Source: an uncultured Candidatus Binatia bacterium
GTDB taxonomy: Bacteria; Desulfobacterota; Binatia; UBA9968; JAJDTQ01
DNA length: 64,000 nt
Assembly: GCA_958295985.1 (NCBI GenBank)
Contig: OY282432.1
Span: 1,054,001-1,118,000, forward strand
Direction: 5' to 3'
Every line of letters starts with the position of its first letter. The stretch's first letter is position 1. The notes below the pieces were generated by a model that made no database searches, was not told the origin of the DNA, and worked only from the letters and a program-made list of their open reading frames with translations. A program made the position numbers and the translations under genes. Of this stretch, positions 2,229 through 60,481 are shown one piece after another.

Positions 2229-3743
<1,515 letters not shown>

Positions 3744-53249: not shown

Positions 53250-54071
53250 ATGAAGTTTCTCGCCGCCGCAGTCCAGATGCTGGCCACGTCCGACAAGGAG
53301 GCGAACCTCCGGGAAGCCGAGCGGTGGATCCGCCAGGCCCATGCCGCGGGCGCGCAACTGGTGGTCCTGCCGGAGGTGTTCAACTGGAGGGGCCGCGGCG
53401 CGGACACCGCGGCCAGCGCCGAACCGGTGCCGGGTCCTTCGACGGAGCGCATGAGCGCCCTGGCATCCGAGCTTGGACTGTACCTGCTGGCAGGTTCCAT
53501 CCTGGAGCGCCCGGACAGCGGGAACCGGGCCTTCAACACCAGCGTGCTCCTCGGCCCCGGGACCGGAATCATCGCACGCTATCGGAAGATCCACCTGTTC
53601 GACGTCGATATCGAGGGCGAGGAGCCCATCCGCGAATCCCGATTCCGGCAGCCGGGCGACGCCGTGGTGGTGGCGGACACTCCCCTGTGCCCCATGGGGC
53701 TTTCGGTGTGCTACGACCTGCGCTTCCCGGAACTATACCGTCGCCTGACCGAACGCGGCGCCCGGATCATCTTCGTGCCGTCCGTCTTCTCCACCGCCAC
53801 CGGCCCCGCCCACTGGGAGCCGCTGCTCCGCGCCCGCGCCATCGAGAACCAGGTCTATGTCATCGCCCCGGACCAGACCGGCGACCACCCTGCCAGCATG
53901 GGTGCCTATGGACACTCCATGATCGTCGATCCCTGGGGCAAGGTTGTCGCCAAGGCGGATACCGAGCCGGGCGTCATCCTGGCCCCCATCGACATCGACT
54001 ACCTGGAGGAGGTGAGACGCCGGTTGCCGGCCCTGTCCCACCGCAGGGGATTTCTGGAGGCGAGTGGGTAG
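53250..54071 (+). CDS. Carbon-nitrogen hydrolase (Nit-type amidase)
   Basis: A 273-residue nitrilase-superfamily enzyme with the full catalytic triad: Glu42 (LPEVFNW), Lys113 (YRKIHLFDVD) and Cys154 (LSVCYDLRFPELYR). The motifs are those of the Nit1/Nit2 branch (omega-amidase or deaminated-glutathione amidase) rather than true nitrilases. ATG 53250 (MKFLAAAVQM) is chosen over 53235 because it starts at the first beta strand. It borders the island that begins at 54280. Confidence 0.88.
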   Translation: MKFLAAAVQMLATSDKEANLREAERWIRQAHAAGAQLVVLPEVFNWRGRGADTAASAEPVPGPSTERMSALASELGLYLLAGSILERPDSGNRAFNTSVLLGPGTGIIARYRKIHLFDVDIEGEEPIRESRFRQPGDAVVVADTPLCPMGLSVCYDLRFPELYRRLTERGARIIFVPSVFSTATGPAHWEPLLRARAIENQVYVIAPDQTGDHPASMGAYGHSMIVDPWGKVVAKADTEPGVILAPIDIDYLEEVRRRLPALSHRRGFLEASG

Positions 54072-54279: not shown

Positions 54280-55629
54280 ATGCAGGCGGTGCCAAAACTG
54301 TTCATATCGGGAGAAATAGAAACGCCTATGAGTTATGACCCTGGCAAAGATTACACATTTCGCTATCGTTCCAAACGCCACAGGGAACTTCCGCATGTGG
54401 TCAAGTTTTCCGGCGGGCGGTCCAGCGGCTTGTTGCTTTTCACTCTGCTGGAAAATAACTTTTTGAAGCAGGAACGTGGTGACGTGGTTGTGTTTAACAA
54501 CACATCGTGTGAACACCCGGAGACCTACAAGTTCGTCGCTGAGTGCAAAAAGCGCGTAGAGACAGCCGGTATCCCGTTCTTTTTTGTCCAGTTCCAAACC
54601 TACGAGGACGCGCGGCAAGGCGGATGGAGACGCCTCCCGTCCTACCGGCTGGTCAACGAGTATCCGTTCTCGAAAGATAATCCCGATGGATTCCAATGGC
54701 GCGGAGAAGTTTTCGAAGAGATGCTCTCACACAAGGCATACCTGCCAAACCAGTTCAGGCGTGTATGTACTCAGTCGCTAAAGCTGGAAGTAACTCGTCA
54801 ATTTCTGCGCGACTGGTTCGCCAACAAGAAGGGCATTTCACACCAGGGGCACGGCTTAGATGAATCGCAGGTGGACGTCCGTCAATTGCACAAGCTGCAT
54901 ATTCGCAACGGCGGCGGAGTACCCGAGGATGTTCTCCTTGCAAAAAAAAGCTTCATGTTGAACCGTCCGACCAGTCGTCCACGCCAAATATACAAGGACT
55001 TTTCAGCTACATCCGCGTCCTTTGAGAATCCTGTCCTCAGGGGGAAAGTGTTCGGACGTAAAGCATGGTTCGGCGACGGTGGCATCGAGTATGTGGCCTT
55101 CATTGGCTTGCGTGGTGACGAACAATTGCGTGTTGCAAGGGTCGAGTCAAGATCGTCCAATCCCCATGCCAATGTAGGATATGAGGGCGAACACGTTTAC
55201 ATGCCGTTGGCAACGATGCAGGTCAAAAAGGGTGATGTCAATGCCTTCTGGCAACGGCAAAGCTGGGACTTGAACCTCCCGGAAGATAGTGCGTTGTCGA
55301 ACTGCGTCTATTGCTTTCTCAAAGGGGTCCATAACCTCTCACAGGCTCATACTGCAATGGAAGTGCAAAAAGGCAGCGTCATCAAGGGCTTCGGTTCGAC
55401 TATTGGTACTCCTTGTGACGTGAACTGGTGGGCGAACAAAGAACAAGAGTACGGCCGCAACCTGGAAACAGAAAAGAGAGAGCGTACAAACCCCGACGCT
55501 CCCGATTTCATAGGGTTCTTTGGGATGTCGAGTGGGTTCTCATACAAGGTTCTGGCTGACTATGCTATGGATGGCGACAACTTGGAAGACTTCTCTGACT
55601 CCGTGCTGCCTTGCGATTGCACCGAGTAG
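54280..55629 (+). CDS. ATP-pyrophosphatase of the PAPS-reductase family, with Cys cluster
   Basis: A 449-residue N-type ATP-PPase: the PP-loop is VKFSGGRSSGLLLF (residues 42-55), followed by VVFNNTSCEHPETYKFV with Cys77, QFRRVCTQSLKLE with Cys163 (the R-x-C-T-x-x-L-K motif of this family) and SNCVYCFLKG with Cys342 and Cys345, so four cysteines could bind an iron-sulfur cluster. Such enzymes adenylate a substrate for sulfur transfer, as DndC or SspD do in DNA phosphorothioation. GGGAGG precedes ATG 54280 (open to 54250). The next gene, 6 bases on, is a cysteine desulfurase, the natural sulfur donor. Base composition is lower in GC than the flanks. The substrate is unknown. Confidence 0.82.
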   Translation: MQAVPKLFISGEIETPMSYDPGKDYTFRYRSKRHRELPHVVKFSGGRSSGLLLFTLLENNFLKQERGDVVVFNNTSCEHPETYKFVAECKKRVETAGIPFFFVQFQTYEDARQGGWRRLPSYRLVNEYPFSKDNPDGFQWRGEVFEEMLSHKAYLPNQFRRVCTQSLKLEVTRQFLRDWFANKKGISHQGHGLDESQVDVRQLHKLHIRNGGGVPEDVLLAKKSFMLNRPTSRPRQIYKDFSATSASFENPVLRGKVFGRKAWFGDGGIEYVAFIGLRGDEQLRVARVESRSSNPHANVGYEGEHVYMPLATMQVKKGDVNAFWQRQSWDLNLPEDSALSNCVYCFLKGVHNLSQAHTAMEVQKGSVIKGFGSTIGTPCDVNWWANKEQEYGRNLETEKRERTNPDAPDFIGFFGMSSGFSYKVLADYAMDGDNLEDFSDSVLPCDCTE

Positions 55630-55635
55630 TTATCT

Positions 55636-56790
55636 ATGAAGAAACTCGTGTATCTCGACTACCAGGCAACGACGCCGGTTGACCCTTACGTTTTCGCCGC
55701 CATGCAGCCGTATTGGATGGAGAACTTTGGCAACCCTCACTCCGAAGGGCACCCTTTCGGATGGGAAGCGCGCGAAGCGGTAGAGTTGGCGCGTAGTCGG
55801 GTAGCTGACTTCATCGGCGCTGACGATGACGAGATCGTGTTCGTCTCCGGAGCTACTGAGTCGTGCAATCTCGCTTTGCGCGGCGTGGCAATGAGTGAAC
55901 GCCAAGAACGCCGACAAATCATCACCCTTACAACTGAGCACGTGGCGGTTCTCGAAACGGTGCAGTGGCTAGGCAATCATGGGTTCGATGTGGTTGCCTT
56001 GCCGGTAAAGTCGGACGGTCTGTTGGACTTGCGGGAATTGGAATCGACTTTGAACGAGAACACATTGTTGGTGTCGGTGATGCTGGTTAACAACGAAATT
56101 GGTGTCATACAACCACTCCGTGAAATCTCTGCAATTTGTCGTGAGGTCGGAGCCATCTTCCATACAGATGCAACCCAAGCGGCAGGACGCATCAAGATAG
56201 ACGTTGACGAACTAGGTGTTGATCTGTTAAGCCTGTCAGGACATAAGGTTTACGGGCCAAACGGCATAGGCGCTTTGTACGTCCGCAATCGTCCAGGCAT
56301 GCGTATCGCGCCTTTGCTGACTGGCGGTTCGCAAGAACGTGGGATCAGACCCGGCACGGTCGCCTCTCCACTTGTCGTTGGGTTGGGAAAGGCGTGCGCC
56401 ATTGCCCATCATCAATTAGAGCACGATGTGAAACGACTTGAAGCAATGGGGTGTCGGTTGTTGGCGGAGTTGAAGAGAGATTTTCCGAATTTACGGACGT
56501 TTGGAAACATGGAACAGCGCGTTCCAGGGAGTCTCAGCATCGGAGTTCCCGGCGTCTTGGGAGAACGTCTTGTAGAGGTGGCCTCCGGGAAAGTCGCCAT
56601 CTCCACAGGGGCAGCGTGTGCTACGGGTTCACCCGAGCCGTCGCACGTCCTGTTGGCCCTGGGACTTGAACCGGAAGTGGCCGTGACAGGCGTGAGGATA
56701 AGCCTGGGGCGGTTCACCACAGACGACGAAGTCGATACTGCCAGCGAAGTCTTGCGGTGGGCGTTGAAGAGCATGATGATGGGAAGCTAG
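55636..56790 (+). CDS. Cysteine desulfurase (IscS/NifS/DndA-like)
   Basis: A 384-residue PLP enzyme that takes sulfur from cysteine as a persulfide. It has YLDYQATTPVDPYV, the substrate-site SGATESCNLALRG, HTDATQAAGRIKIDV, the PLP-binding lysine Lys204 in SLSGHKVYGPNGIG, RPGTVASPLVVG and the catalytic Cys328 in STGAACATGSPEPSHVLLAL. No Fe-S assembly genes (iscU, iscR, hscA) are nearby; it is locked between an ATP-PPase (6 bases upstream) and a GHKL ATPase (3 bases downstream), so it probably feeds sulfur to this system only. Confidence 0.92.
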   Translation: MKKLVYLDYQATTPVDPYVFAAMQPYWMENFGNPHSEGHPFGWEAREAVELARSRVADFIGADDDEIVFVSGATESCNLALRGVAMSERQERRQIITLTTEHVAVLETVQWLGNHGFDVVALPVKSDGLLDLRELESTLNENTLLVSVMLVNNEIGVIQPLREISAICREVGAIFHTDATQAAGRIKIDVDELGVDLLSLSGHKVYGPNGIGALYVRNRPGMRIAPLLTGGSQERGIRPGTVASPLVVGLGKACAIAHHQLEHDVKRLEAMGCRLLAELKRDFPNLRTFGNMEQRVPGSLSIGVPGVLGERLVEVASGKVAISTGAACATGSPEPSHVLLALGLEPEVAVTGVRISLGRFTTDDEVDTASEVLRWALKSMMMGS

Positions 56791-56793
56791 CAA

Positions 56794-58779
56794 ATGACTG
56801 CCACACTGAAGTTTGGGGATGCCGCCTCGAACGAAGGATTCACTCCTTTCGGTACGGCGGCGTTCAGCGACTTGCGCCCCGCCCGAATAGTGCGGGAGCT
56901 TATACAGAACTCACTCGATGCAGCAGTCGTGGAAGCGGGTGAGGACACCGCTATCATGCGTTTCCAGGTTGACTCAATTAGCCGCCGTCAGCTTCCCGAT
57001 GTCGATGGCTACGAAAAGGCTTTTAAGAAGGCGGTCGAGTATCAAACCAATATCAACAAGGGTAAACTCCCAGACGCGGCGCAACAGGTTGTTGACCAGA
57101 TCAAGTCGGGACTTCAGGAACTGCAAAACGGGAAGGCAAGCCTATTGTCGGTCGTGGACAACGGCATAGGACTCGACACCAAGAGAATGAACTCGTTACT
57201 GGGTGACGGGTCTAGCGCTAAGTCGGACGAGTCCTCTGGATCCTATGGCGTTGGGCACTTGGCGAGTATGTCGCTATCCGACATCAGGTACATGCTCTAT
57301 GGTGGGGTGACAGAGGATGGCAAGAGCATCGTTGCAGGCCGGACAGTGTTGGCAAGTCACCCCGGACGGAGAAAGCTCAACGCCGCTCAAGGCTATCTGA
57401 TAGACGGCTTCAGAAACGGCCTTGACGGCAACCTGTACGACTTCAGCACGGAGCACCCAGACGTTCTGTCGAATCGTATCAAAGAGATCGCCTCCAAATG
57501 GAGGCATGGCAGTTGTGTGATGATGCCGGTGTTCAATTGCTTCAGGGGGCAGCTAGAGCTATGGGAGGTGGTGTCGAAGGTAGCCGCGTACAATTTCTGC
57601 GCTGCTATACAACAAGGCAAACTCATCATCGAAGTGGAGGAGGAGGCAAAGCGGCGAAAACTGGATAAAGACACTCTGGGCGGTGTCCTCGAACAGGACA
57701 AAGACCGGATCAGAGCGGTAAGGTCGGACACTTTCTTCGAGGGACTACGCCCCTCGGGGGCAAATGCTTACTCGACACTGAAGACGCTTGTCGATAACGC
57801 TAGGCATCGGGTAGAAGTAAGCAGTGGCGTCGCATCCCTCAATCTGATGGTGCAGGCGATGCATGGCAATACCAGAGTTGACTTGTTCAGAAACGGCATG
57901 TGGATTACGGACGATGTGTTCGCCTTGAAACGGGCCGACTTCGCCAATCGCCAGCCTTTTCATGCGGTTATTGAGATTGAGGCGAAACAGAGCGGCGAGT
58001 TGCACAGGCTCATTCGCAAGGCAGAGGGGCCGATGCACGACACACTTTCGTTCACCCTTTTGTCCAAAGCGGAGCAAGAGAAGTTGCGAAAATCTCTGAG
58101 GCAGCTCGCTGACCATATTAAAGAGCAAGTGCCCGAAATCGGAAGCGAGGAATACAGGGTTGATGACTTTCTCCTGGTCAACACTGGCGTAGGTGATGGG
58201 CGTGGGACGCAGAGTTTCTTCTTCTGGGGCATTCCGACGACAGTGTCTCGAAACCGAGGCAATCAGCTCATACCTGCTGGGAGTGGCCAAACCGAGGTTG
58301 ATCCCCATCCTCCCCATCCTCCCCATCCTCCGAGTCCTCCGAGTCCGAGAGAAAGAAGGTCCACACCACTGCCGTTCAGTTCGGTAGTAGTCCCTAACGG
58401 AGCGGAAAGGCTCAGTGCATCAATTGAGAGTCGAAGTGACTTCCCGGAGGCTTGGCTCGTTCTTCGAGTTGACGAAAACGCGGACGTCACGTGCGACAGG
58501 ATCTGGGGTGATGAGGACGTCTCGATAGTGTCTTTCAGCATCAGGCCAACCGATGCAACCGGAGAACCGCTCAGGTCGGAGATAACCTCTGACGGGAAAG
58601 TCGTCAAAGTGTACCGACTTTCCGAGAACACCACCTACGAACTGGACATCGAATACAACATGCCTGACGAGCTGGCGAATGTAGTCGAAACTCCAGTGTT
58701 CAGGCTGGAACTCCACCGCCCGCCCAATCCACCGGAGGAAAAGGACCAGAAAGAAATCCAGGATGCCTACAACACTTAG
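56794..58779 (+). CDS. GHKL (MORC/MutL/Hsp90-like) ATPase
   Basis: A 661-residue protein with the ATP-binding Bergerat motifs: RIVRELIQNSLDAAVV (Glu35, Asn39), SVVDNGIGLD (Asp122, Gly124, Gly126) and GSYGVGHLA (residues 149-157). A middle domain (residues about 190-430) follows, then a linker of Pro-His-Pro repeats (PHPPHPPHPPSPPSP, about residues 506-520) and a C-terminal beta-rich domain. GHKL proteins of the MORC/MutL kind are known in bacterial restriction-type operons. It starts 3 bases after the desulfurase and overlaps the next gene by 17 bases. Confidence 0.85.
   Translation: MTATLKFGDAASNEGFTPFGTAAFSDLRPARIVRELIQNSLDAAVVEAGEDTAIMRFQVDSISRRQLPDVDGYEKAFKKAVEYQTNINKGKLPDAAQQVVDQIKSGLQELQNGKASLLSVVDNGIGLDTKRMNSLLGDGSSAKSDESSGSYGVGHLASMSLSDIRYMLYGGVTEDGKSIVAGRTVLASHPGRRKLNAAQGYLIDGFRNGLDGNLYDFSTEHPDVLSNRIKEIASKWRHGSCVMMPVFNCFRGQLELWEVVSKVAAYNFCAAIQQGKLIIEVEEEAKRRKLDKDTLGGVLEQDKDRIRAVRSDTFFEGLRPSGANAYSTLKTLVDNARHRVEVSSGVASLNLMVQAMHGNTRVDLFRNGMWITDDVFALKRADFANRQPFHAVIEIEAKQSGELHRLIRKAEGPMHDTLSFTLLSKAEQEKLRKSLRQLADHIKEQVPEIGSEEYRVDDFLLVNTGVGDGRGTQSFFFWGIPTTVSRNRGNQLIPAGSGQTEVDPHPPHPPHPPSPPSPRERRSTPLPFSSVVVPNGAERLSASIESRSDFPEAWLVLRVDENADVTCDRIWGDEDVSIVSFSIRPTDATGEPLRSEITSDGKVVKVYRLSENTTYELDIEYNMPDELANVVETPVFRLELHRPPNPPEEKDQKEIQDAYNT
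58301..58345 (+). repeat. Short tandem repeat encoding Pro-His-Pro linker
   Basis: CCCCATCCT units repeated in 9-base steps, then CCGAGTCCT twice, giving PHP-PHP-PHP-PSP. Such repeats are prone to length change. Confidence 0.75.
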
Positions 58780-59629
58780 CATATGGGCTACGGATTCTGT
58801 TTCGGTCAGTCGCGCGTTCCAATGGCCCGTTTTGGAGTCAGGTAACGGCAGCTTCGAGAATGGGATCTATTCCGTCGTCTGCGAGGACCGAGAACGGGGC
58901 AAATCCTTCTTCTTGGAGCATAAGGTTCAAGGCTCGCCGTTAATAGATAGTTGGACGCAGGCGGGTAATCTTATTTTCGTCTGCACCGTAGCCGCACCCC
59001 GCTCGATGTACCGAGAGTTACACCAGACTCATGAGCACAGGCAATTCATTGAGTGGGAGCAGGAAAACCTCGGTGAATGCCCGATGTTCACACCAATGAT
59101 AGTGGCGCGGCGCGGGATCCACCACGTTGCTGATTCCAACGTTGACGGACTGAGCCGTATATGGGACGGCAAAAAGTTGCTCCTGCCGAGAGGAGCGAGG
59201 GTGGCCGTGGGGCCAACATTCAAATTCCAATCGGGCATCACCGGATTGCTGGACTTCAGCCCGGATGAAAGTCTCGAAAGTGGCCGATTCAGGATAGAGC
59301 CAAGTTCGGAAAACGGCTTCACTTTCAAGGTCTATCTGGCACGGAACCTGTACAACCATCTCCGATACAACAGAGGAGAACCTGCCGGCACGAACATCAT
59401 GGTTCACATCGTGTCGGCGGCTTTGGCGCGCTTGCGTCAAGACTACTCAAAAGATGATGGTGAAGAGGGCTGGCGTTCGTTCCCAAACTTGGTTGTTCTC
59501 TCGGACATCCTTCGACAACAGGGGTTGCCGCACTGGGCGGACGAGGAATTCAGGCCAGAAGTGGTTGCCACTGGCTTGCATCCCCACAAGTTGCCGATAG
59601 AAGGCGTTGCCCAAGATGGTCAAGAGTGA
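58763..59629 (+). CDS. Unknown protein of the sulfur-linked island
   Basis: A 288-residue protein with no family I know. It starts MPTTLSIWATDSVSVSRAFQ (ATG 58763, overlapping the GHKL gene by 17 bases) and has a beta-rich first half (FENGIYSVVCEDRERGKSFF, DSWTQAGNLIFVCTV) and a later helical part (NLYNHLRYNRG, HIVSAALARLRQDYSKDD). The overlap shows translation is coupled to the ATPase, so the two probably form a complex. Confidence 0.75.
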   Translation: MPTTLSIWATDSVSVSRAFQWPVLESGNGSFENGIYSVVCEDRERGKSFFLEHKVQGSPLIDSWTQAGNLIFVCTVAAPRSMYRELHQTHEHRQFIEWEQENLGECPMFTPMIVARRGIHHVADSNVDGLSRIWDGKKLLLPRGARVAVGPTFKFQSGITGLLDFSPDESLESGRFRIEPSSENGFTFKVYLARNLYNHLRYNRGEPAGTNIMVHIVSAALARLRQDYSKDDGEEGWRSFPNLVVLSDILRQQGLPHWADEEFRPEVVATGLHPHKLPIEGVAQDGQE

Positions 59630-60035
59630 CAGCAGGGAGGTGAACCGGGAGGACTACGACCGGCTGCAAACGGCCCTGCTCAAGGAAAAGGGCGGCGATG
59701 CTCAGCGTGAGTTCCTCAAAGCGGTCAAGGACAACGGCGAATTCTTGGACTTCATGAACGAGAAAATCAGAATGACGGACGGGGACTCATTGCCATTGTT
59801 CGACGGTCCGTTAACAGAAGCGTCGTTCAAAGAACCAACCACAGACCAAGAGCGCAGAATGTACGAAGTCTGGCGTGATGTTACCCCAAGAACAGCCTGC
59901 CGGGTTTCGTTCTGGGCGGGTATCACGCTGGGGCATATCAGGGCTGGCAAGATAGCCGAGGTTAGCTGGCTTGCGTCCAACAGGCGCTGTATATGGGCGG
60001 AGACGGTGACGCCCGTGCAATCGACGATTGCGTAA
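59616..60035 (+). CDS. Unknown protein, possibly N-terminal half of a split gene
   Basis: A 139-residue product from ATG 59616 (MVKSDSREVNREDYDRLQTA), charged and helical, with RMYEVWRDVTPRTACRVSFW AG at about residues 84-106. That stretch and the next frame's sequence (RSVFVNPPFGRAWWRSRI) look like one continuous DUF6339-like protein: reading one frame over from about 59975 gives QQALYMGGDGDARAIDDCVR as a smooth join. So this gene may be truncated by a frameshift (real or from sequencing). It overlaps the previous gene by 14 bases. Confidence 0.6.
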   Translation: MVKSDSREVNREDYDRLQTALLKEKGGDAQREFLKAVKDNGEFLDFMNEKIRMTDGDSLPLFDGPLTEASFKEPTTDQERRMYEVWRDVTPRTACRVSFWAGITLGHIRAGKIAEVSWLASNRRCIWAETVTPVQSTIA

Positions 60036-60481
60036 GAACGGTGCTCCGGCAAATGAGCGGGATTCCAACGGCCAGGGGCAACAGGAGCGTTTTTGTGAAC
60101 CCTCCATTCGGGCGTGCTTGGTGGCGGTCACGTATAGTAGCTCGCATCCTGGAGCGAGAAGACAAGGACATTGAAAGCAGGGAAGCGTTGCTGGAAGTCG
60201 TGCGTCGTAGTAAGGAGTACTGGGAACAGCTCGTAAGGATGATAGTGTCGCGTGGCTCGGTGTTTGGCTCGGTGGTCGTCCAGGACGCTCTCATCAACGG
60301 ATTGGCGAAGCATCTGAAGGATGACCTTGATACTCCTCTACGAAACGTTGTTCCCTTCAAACAGATGCTGCGCCGGTTCAGCAACTTGGCCGCTGCCAGA
60401 GAATTTGGGGTGTTGGATTTCGACGAAATCAGCACTGTGGTTGATGAGTTGATAGTTAGATTTAGCCTGATTCGGAGGTAA
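59993..60481 (+). CDS. Unknown protein, possibly C-terminal half of a DUF6339-like protein
   Basis: A 162-residue product from ATG 59993, overlapping the previous frame by 43 bases. It has VRTVLRQMSGIPTARGNRSV, FVNPPFGRAWWRSRIVARIL and RRSKEYWEQLVRMIVSRGSV, then a helical tail. The overlap and the sequence flow suggest it continues the upstream frame; together they would be about 285 residues. Last gene of the island. Confidence 0.6.
   Translation: MGGDGDARAIDDCVRTVLRQMSGIPTARGNRSVFVNPPFGRAWWRSRIVARILEREDKDIESREALLEVVRRSKEYWEQLVRMIVSRGSVFGSVVVQDALINGLAKHLKDDLDTPLRNVVPFKQMLRRFSNLAAAREFGVLDFDEISTVVDELIVRFSLIRR

Follow-up and report, generated by a model that had tools for sequence, protein, structure and literature searches.

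A compact gene cassette from a Candidatus Binatia genome that looks like a sulfur-based DNA defence system built around a MORC-type ATPase module

The stretch of DNA analysed here (the window: 64,000 nucleotides of contig OY282432.1, assembly GCA_958295985.1, from an uncultured Candidatus Binatia bacterium) contains a compact operon of five genes, A-B-C-D-EF, of 6.2 kb, the fifth of which is split in the window (Table 1). It joins an ATP pyrophosphatase (ATP-PPase, gene A) and a cysteine desulfurase (gene B) to an ATPase of the GHKL type (gene C) and its two companions. The cassette looks like an unrecognised sulfur-based DNA defence system. On balance we favour the reading that it is a restriction-modification-like cassette, in which a MORC-type ATPase module would work with a sulfur mark, most likely a DNA phosphorothioate, in the place otherwise taken by cytosine methylation.

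Table 1. Genes of the operon in window coordinates.
Feature	Coordinates	Strand	Basis
Gene A: PAPS-reductase-like PP-loop ATP pyrophosphatase, 449 amino acids	54280..55629	+	PF01507, PADLOC SspD/BrxP, PHROG 424, alignment
Gene B: dedicated cysteine desulfurase, 384 amino acids	55636..56790	+	PF00266, PADLOC SspA/DndA, Lys204 and Cys328
Gene C: GHKL (Bergerat) ATPase, 661 amino acids, MORC/MutL-like, PDC-M33A family	56794..58779	+	PADLOC PDC-M33A, motifs
Gene D: PDC-M33B-like protein, 288 amino acids	58763..59629	+	PADLOC PDC-M33B, structure model
Gene EF, first half: N-terminal part, PDC-M33C/DUF6339-like, ended by a frame change	59616..60035	+	weak PDC-M33C, homologue alignment
Gene EF, second half: C-terminal part, other frame	59993..60481	+	weak DUF6339

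A scan for A of genome contigs, one genome per species and 84,980 species in all, found the gene in 18 genomes of several phyla, which is a lower bound since the scan requires exact short peptides of the window's A. The hosts include Gammaproteobacteria and Hyphomicrobiales (Pseudomonadota), three Acidobacteriota bins, two Verrucomicrobiota, and representatives of Dadabacteria, Chloroflexota and a 'Deltaproteobacteria' bin. B follows A in all 18 loci (denoted below by L numbers), so that a cysteine desulfurase and an ATP-PPase of the PAPS-reductase type, the pair that marks phosphorothioation in the wide sense, share one operon throughout. Of the 17 loci whose contig continues (the Chloroflexota contig, L004, ends inside B), 16 have C downstream of A-B, with nothing, a DUF262 gene (L010, L011, L015, L016) or a transposase (L003) in between; L111 was counted as continuing L002, since each has half of C at a contig end. 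Among the 16 loci informative for D and EF, 15 have D and 14 have EF, and complete sets occur in four phyla (Acidobacteriota, Pseudomonadota, Verrucomicrobiota and Dadabacteria bins). The pairwise divergences of the five genes are correlated (r = 0.91-0.96 over 11-14 loci, with L002, L007, L012, L014 and the window left out). Retention of the A-B-C-D-EF set across phyla indicates that the association is not due to chance. An earlier reading of the window, made from its letters alone (the sequence-only reading), had named a gene set not kept together elsewhere as grounds for giving up its proposal, and the proposal survived this comparison.

The operon is accessory, since A is rare: among 398 genomes of one phylum just the reference has it, among 58 relatives of the window genome just the window genome itself, and among the eight other genomes of the window's genus none. 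The gene between B and C in L003 (L003:12629-13885) was rejected as a part of the system, as it encodes an ISL3-family transposase (Pfam E 8e-68). This insertion, together with a B gene split across two open reading frames (ORFs) in both L007 and L014, suggests that the cassette decays in several hosts.

The product of B matches Pfam PF00266 (E 8e-83) and is equally near to SspA (E 5e-145) and DndA (E 2e-144) in PADLOC, and the NCBIfam IscS and DndA models match it below their cut-offs. Lys204 is conserved in all 19 aligned rows (the 18 loci and the window) and Cys328 in 17, the other two rows (L007 and L014) having gaps where the ORF used is partial. In A, the SGGRSSG motif occupies residues 44-50, and six cysteines (C89, C163, C342, C345, C445 and C447) are invariant in the alignment of 19 sequences. 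A matches PF01507 (PAPS_reduct) just under the cut-off (E 3e-4) and the PADLOC models for SspD (E 1e-8) and BrxP (E 5e-6), both of which also match all 19 members of the family, while its best profile match is phage PHROG 424 (E 7e-30). A sequence search of the Protein Data Bank (PDB) with A gave no believable match, and the plasmid and phage collections gave one partial match each. The phage match, over 24% of A, is to a PAPS-reductase-like gene of phage OQ984150 (L156:4031-4705), which one small gene separates from a DNA methyltransferase gene upstream of it. The profile relations of A to DndC and CysH are weak, and those to ThiI, TtcA and CysD weaker still, and A is for this reason, as judged from its profiles, a distinct, divergent branch, with a sulfur target that we infer from context. 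Sulfate assimilation and transfer RNA (tRNA) thiolation, either of which would have undone the sequence-only proposal if clearly the home of A, were rejected in that role as A has no close match to CysH, TtcA or ThiI of E. coli.

The three remaining genes correspond to a module that, by profile, is already listed in PADLOC as the candidate PDC-M33A/B/C, and is thus not wholly new. C matches PDC-M33A (E 1.8e-32) and, below the cut-off, Pfam HATPase_c_3 (E 2e-4). Its RELIQN (34-39), DNGIG (122-126) and GSYGVGH (149-155) segments are what we take to be the GHKL motifs. A PDB sequence search with C gave just weak MutL matches (E 0.74 or worse), and the plasmid collection gave none. D matches PDC-M33B (E 3e-7), and its structure model (predicted local distance difference test score, pLDDT, 84.2; predicted template modelling score, pTM, 0.61) is predicted to be beta-rich with helices at the C terminus. 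The first half of EF matches PDC-M33C weakly (E 0.017) and aligns with the N-terminal part of whole homologues, and the second half matches DUF6339 weakly (E 0.039). A whole homologue (L010:17002-17865) reaches 23.7 bits with DUF6339 (cut-off 23.2) and E 4e-4 with PDC-M33C, and its model is all-helical (pLDDT 89.0, pTM 0.87). Neither the D model nor that of the EF homologue has a Foldseek match in the PDB at E <= 0.001. No nuclease motif was recognised by eye in the alignments of D and EF, which would fit recruitment of a separate nuclease. The sequence-only reading had described a GHKL ATPase plus two proteins that it could not place; the ATPase is confirmed, and C, D and EF now match a known candidate.

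The layout given by the sequence-only reading proved exact in its six ORFs, its gaps of 6 and 3 bases and its overlaps of 17, 14 and 43 bases, and the motifs it had named in A, B and C are all present. It had also placed the operon in lower-GC DNA, in agreement with a guanine-plus-cytosine content of 54.0% as compared with 63.0% in the rest of the window; when the window was sampled in 100-base steps (578 stretches, each 6202 bases long), the minimum fell on the stretch starting at 54301, near the operon start. Its count of 'five or six genes' describes a real gene set, which comes to five. Six separate genes were rejected since the last two ORFs belong to a single gene, which one ORF (286-353 amino acids as called) spans in 13 loci and which is whole in the closest relative (304 amino acids, L111:1795-2709). 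The alignment with L111 shows a deficit of 40 bases in the window at the break, a length not divisible by three. The left flank is kept to about position 54055 at 77-91% identity in five genomes of the window's genus, and the right flank was unmatched in the genus stretches taken, so that no clean empty site was seen.

Genes of phosphorothioation or type IV kinds lie near the unit in 14 of the 18 loci (L002 counted through L111). None were seen in L005, L008 or L018, nor in the window, and the contig of L004 is too short to judge. DUF262/GmrSD_N occurs in six loci, between B and C in the four mentioned above and after EF in L013 and in L003, where it is broken into two ORFs, the first one matching Pfam. 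TIGR04096, a model named 'DNA phosphorothioation-associated putative methyltransferase', is also found in six, close after EF in L009, L014, L017 and L019 and at a distance of about 2 kb in L006 and about 7 kb in L007 (by NCBIfam scan for L009 and L014, by genome search and tblastn for the rest). PbeA and PbeC lie downstream of the unit in five loci (L007, L009, L014, L017, L019); the proteins of L017 (in L078) match PbeA at E 7e-150, TIGR04095 at E 1e-92 (below cut-off) and PbeC at E 1e-42, and the other loci were called by tblastn. The DndB family PF14072 ('DNA-sulfur modification-associated') is found in three (L111 and L012 by Pfam, L019 by tblastn), each time beside a small gene that looks by eye like GIY-YIG, for which the two proteins scanned gave no Pfam match. 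In the archaeal case that has been published, PbeABCD depends on the phosphorothioate mark for its antiviral action (PMC6459918).

Some further genes were observed in these surroundings. Between the operon and PbeA lies a protein of about 660-690 amino acids (L078:127-2154, with homologues in L007, L009, L014 and L019), which matches sigma-70 region 4 and, weakly, MzaA; the L009 homologue also gives a weak hit with the C-terminal domain of the RNA polymerase alpha subunit. Another contig of the genome of L014 (L071) carries TIGR04096 beside DndB, DndD and DndE, and L148 has an ORF (2854-3612), some 4.5 kb away from a gene of the TIGR04096 family, that matches the A profile weakly (E 2.9e-6).

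The same ATPase module was also found apart from sulfur genes. Searches with PDC-M33A gave 7 matches in 395 genomes of the window's phylum (one being the window) and 11 in 398 genomes of another phylum (one being the genome of L007), and the neighbourhoods of all 16 other loci were taken, 6.9-19 kb each. None of the 16 has an A or B profile match at E <= 0.01. Homology searches with four methylases and three Vsr proteins from these same loci, each verified with Pfam, show a C5-methylase in 12 of the stretches taken and Vsr in 10. In nine the two genes are no more than about 4 kb away from that of the ATPase (L028, L029, L101, L104, L105, L107, L108, L109, L110); in L102 they are 6-8 kb off, L103 has an adjacent methylase without Vsr, L106 has a methylase 6.5 kb off, and L030-L033 have neither. 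By the same search, no homologue of either was found in the 18 sulfur loci, their extensions or the window's surroundings (L034, L035). The 16 sulfur-type rows of a 32-protein GHKL tree, from which the half protein of L002 was left out, form one clade with 100/100 support, adjoining L101-L103. This single clade suggests that the module, elsewhere usually paired with cytosine methylation, came together with the sulfur pair on one occasion. The tree intermixes host phyla, as lateral transfer would give. Two of the loci without sulfur genes have other neighbours: in L109 (4779-7484) the module with C5-methylase and Vsr also stands beside a Z1-domain protein (PF10593, E 8e-70), and in L031 (5230-11999) it adjoins an apparent CRISPR-cas cluster (by eye).

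These data suggest the following mechanism. B would draw sulfur from cysteine as a persulfide, as its family does, and A would activate the target with ATP and pass the sulfur to nucleic acid, probably through an iron-sulfur (Fe-S) cluster held by the conserved cysteines; the target is most likely the DNA backbone, which would become a phosphorothioate. C, D and EF would form an ATP-driven, MutL/MORC-like DNA-handling module, which more likely reads DNA for the mark and hands unmarked DNA to a separate nuclease. Separate partners would then cut or block, candidates in the relatives being the DUF262 protein, the PbeA/PbeC set and the small nuclease-like protein. The copy in the window may be either the marking half alone or decaying.

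An alternative with a real but minority chance is that C-D-EF itself belongs to the modification machinery, as its DNA-handling half. The GHKL protein would replace DndD or SspC, and D and EF would replace DndE or SspB, so that all five genes would be needed to install sulfur. Dnd, Ssp and BREX4 all pair an ATP-PPase with an ATPase and DNA-binding proteins (PMC12839542, PMC10853773), and pairing of DndDE-type cores with phosphorothioation genes or with cytosine methylases is reported by Rakesh et al. C-D-EF is moreover constant while the partner varies (of 18 loci, six have DUF262 and five the Pbe set, and no partner was seen in L005 or L018), and in the five loci with PbeA and PbeC the unit stands at the place of dndCDEA in the archaeal dndCDEA-pbeABCD locus. 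It would be a tentative extension of this idea, and about as doubtful, to regard the unit as a third DNA-phosphorothioation machine, with the GHKL protein, D and EF in place of DndD-DndE and SspB-SspC, which borrows DUF262-, Pbe- and DndB-linked restriction partners of both known kinds. With the ATPase module serving cytosine-methylation defence in other loci, a single DNA-reading engine would then act with either of two chemically unrelated marks. Against C-D-EF as part of the marking machine speaks that the same family has a C5-methylase nearby in the 12 loci described above; to our knowledge, C5-methylases need no partner such as C-D-EF. As the module also stands beside methylases that need no helper, a reader role appears a little ahead of a marker role, with the latter close behind. 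L008, which has A and B without C-D-EF and no C match anywhere in its genome, tells against an obligate five-gene marking machine and likewise against the sulfur-marking defence cassette that we favour.

Several other observations weigh against that cassette. Its sulfur chemistry is deduced from gene families and context. The relation of A to DndC is weak: the PADLOC DndC model gives E 0.053 with the window protein, DndC models reach E <= 0.01 in 2 and 1 of the 19 family members, and neither the NCBIfam dndC model (TIGR03183) nor a cysH model is among the matches of A at E <= 1. The alignment of the A profile with four DndC sequences spans 139 columns, which take in both the PP-loop and the C-T site, at hhalign E 0.0066 with a probability of 6%, and E. 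coli CysH gives a lower E value (0.0014) over 32 columns. As for the neighbours, TIGR04096 was above cut-off in 10 of 378 control genomes (one being that of L007), and the nine other loci examined had dndBCD in three, a cysteine desulfurase alone in two more and neither in four. With this control TIGR04096 no longer counts as proof of phosphorothioation, although as a neighbour it still lends support. Pbe-type systems, too, are found without Dnd and in the company of cytosine methylases (PMC10853773). In addition, a partner in many hosts could be served by another phosphorothioation system, since many of them carry DndC or SspD elsewhere. DndC was above cut-off in 9 of 19 unit-bearing genomes (the window's included) as compared with 10 of 294 Pseudomonadota genomes (Fisher p 9e-8; the groups are unmatched for phylum or habitat, and the genome of L007, under cut-off, is in both), and strong SspD matches (E < 1e-40) occur in 7 of the 19. 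The excess of DndC among the hosts is at the same time a point in favour of the cassette. The draft bins G456 and G458 (L017 and L019), with the unit plus the Pbe set, have neither DndC nor SspD at E <= 0.001.

The window's genome itself has a second sulfur cluster about 420 kb from the operon (G000:C1:687147-691692; L174:7148-11693), in the order cysteine desulfurase, DndC above cut-off and a DUF262-like ORF with an HNH-type end, the last being recognised by eye. Beyond it lie a helicase-like and then a ParB-like ORF (by eye), and the seeds used gave no DndD or DndE match in the cluster.

PP-loop ATPases and cysteine desulfurases also make thiolated tRNA, so that A and B, which are of the same enzyme classes, could instead place sulfur into RNA such as tRNA as a defence-linked thiolation that C-D-EF senses or acts on. 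We regard this as improbable, as the profile relation of A to TtcA and ThiI is weak, the neighbours in the relatives are of DNA-defence kinds and DNA methylases and Vsr are the companions of the GHKL relatives; no tRNA gene was found in the 64-kb window, which has no bearing either way. Still less probable is a role of A and B in sulfur metabolism or Fe-S supply, with an incidental position next to the GHKL module. A is of the PAPS-reductase type and B resembles IscS, but the unit is kept across phyla with correlated divergence, A is as rare as described above, the CysH match covers only 32 columns and no cysH model matches A, and no sulfate-assimilation gene was recognised beside A when ORF lists were inspected by eye. 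A quite different question is whether the copy in the window is a decaying remnant that is inactive now, whatever the family does, and we give this close to, though somewhat under, an even chance. The break in EF is a net loss relative to L111 that does not preserve the frame, no partner nuclease is recognised in the window, the eight other genomes of the genus lack A, and L005 likewise has no whole EF. On the other hand A, B, C and D are open and carry catalytic motifs, and the break in EF could stem from an assembly error or a programmed frameshift, or the two halves could be made as coupled polypeptides. The split fifth gene counts against the favoured cassette as well, and together with the missing nuclease it is the reason why the copy may be decaying. 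No nuclease, methylase or helicase is found among the Pfam, PADLOC, NCBIfam and PHROG matches of the window operon. The proposal of the sequence-only reading, a sulfur modification coupled to ATP-driven sensing or restriction, is thus partly supported by the conserved unit, the SspD/BrxP-like A, the SspA/DndA-like B and the neighbours in 14 of 18 loci, while its 'restriction complex' fits the relatives better than the window.

The literature, as far as it was accessible, describes Dnd and Ssp as two dedicated routes to DNA phosphorothioate (BREX4 being a relative of Ssp), and the unit can be compared to each. With Ssp (SspABCD with SspE or SspFGH) it shares an SspA-like cysteine desulfurase, a weakly SspD-like ATP-PPase and, in six loci, a DUF262 partner, a domain that SspE also carries, but no operon protein matches SspB or SspC at E <= 1 (PADLOC), their place being taken by the GHKL protein, D and EF. 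With Dnd (DndABCDE) and PbeABCD it shares the cysteine desulfurase and ATP-PPase, and relatives have PbeA with PbeC in five cases, TIGR04096 in six and the DndB family in three, but the five-gene unit has no DndD or DndE match (Pfam, PADLOC, NCBIfam) and no dndC model above cut-off for A; a DndD-like protein, PbeC, appears only further downstream in five relatives. The statement in the sequence-only reading that no DndB/D/E or SspB/C/E is recognisable thus holds for DndD, DndE, SspB and SspC in the unit. The BrxP model of BREX type 4 matches A throughout, but BrxC, PglZ and BrxL have no match among the operon proteins (PADLOC).

The three genes of the phage-defence candidate PDC-M33 correspond in order to C, D and EF (M33C being weak in the split gene), and the unit differs from it in the sulfur pair, which has no match in the 16 other loci, and in the separate clade of its GHKL proteins. 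MORC/paraMORC restriction-modification operons (Iyer et al. 2008, PMC2292703) likewise have a GHKL ATPase with Bergerat motifs, and cousins of the window's protein stand beside modification and Vsr-type genes, but the window operon has no methylase, helicase or restriction-fold endonuclease, and sulfur genes stand at the methylase's place; the PbeA helicase of five relatives lies downstream and is not in the window operon. The accessible text of that paper does not mention PAPS, phosphorothio- or desulfurase. Phage PAPS-reductase-like proteins (PHROG 424) are the best profile match of A, but the record of phage OQ984150, whose gene is a possible member of PHROG 424, has no B or C annotated in the stretch shown. 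No published description of PDC-M33, DUF6339 or a GHKL protein together with phosphorothioation or cysteine desulfurase was found in a search that covered neither preprints nor most subscription papers, and none of the papers listed by broader searches points to the cassette in its title or the opening of its abstract.

A unit that combines this sulfur chemistry with a MORC-type ATPase would imply that marking can be separated from its DNA-handling engine. The cassette is small and has whole relatives, and marking is directly testable by iodine cleavage or mass spectrometry. Such a unit would also link MORC proteins, of which the eukaryotic ones act on marked chromatin, to sulfur-marked DNA in bacteria.

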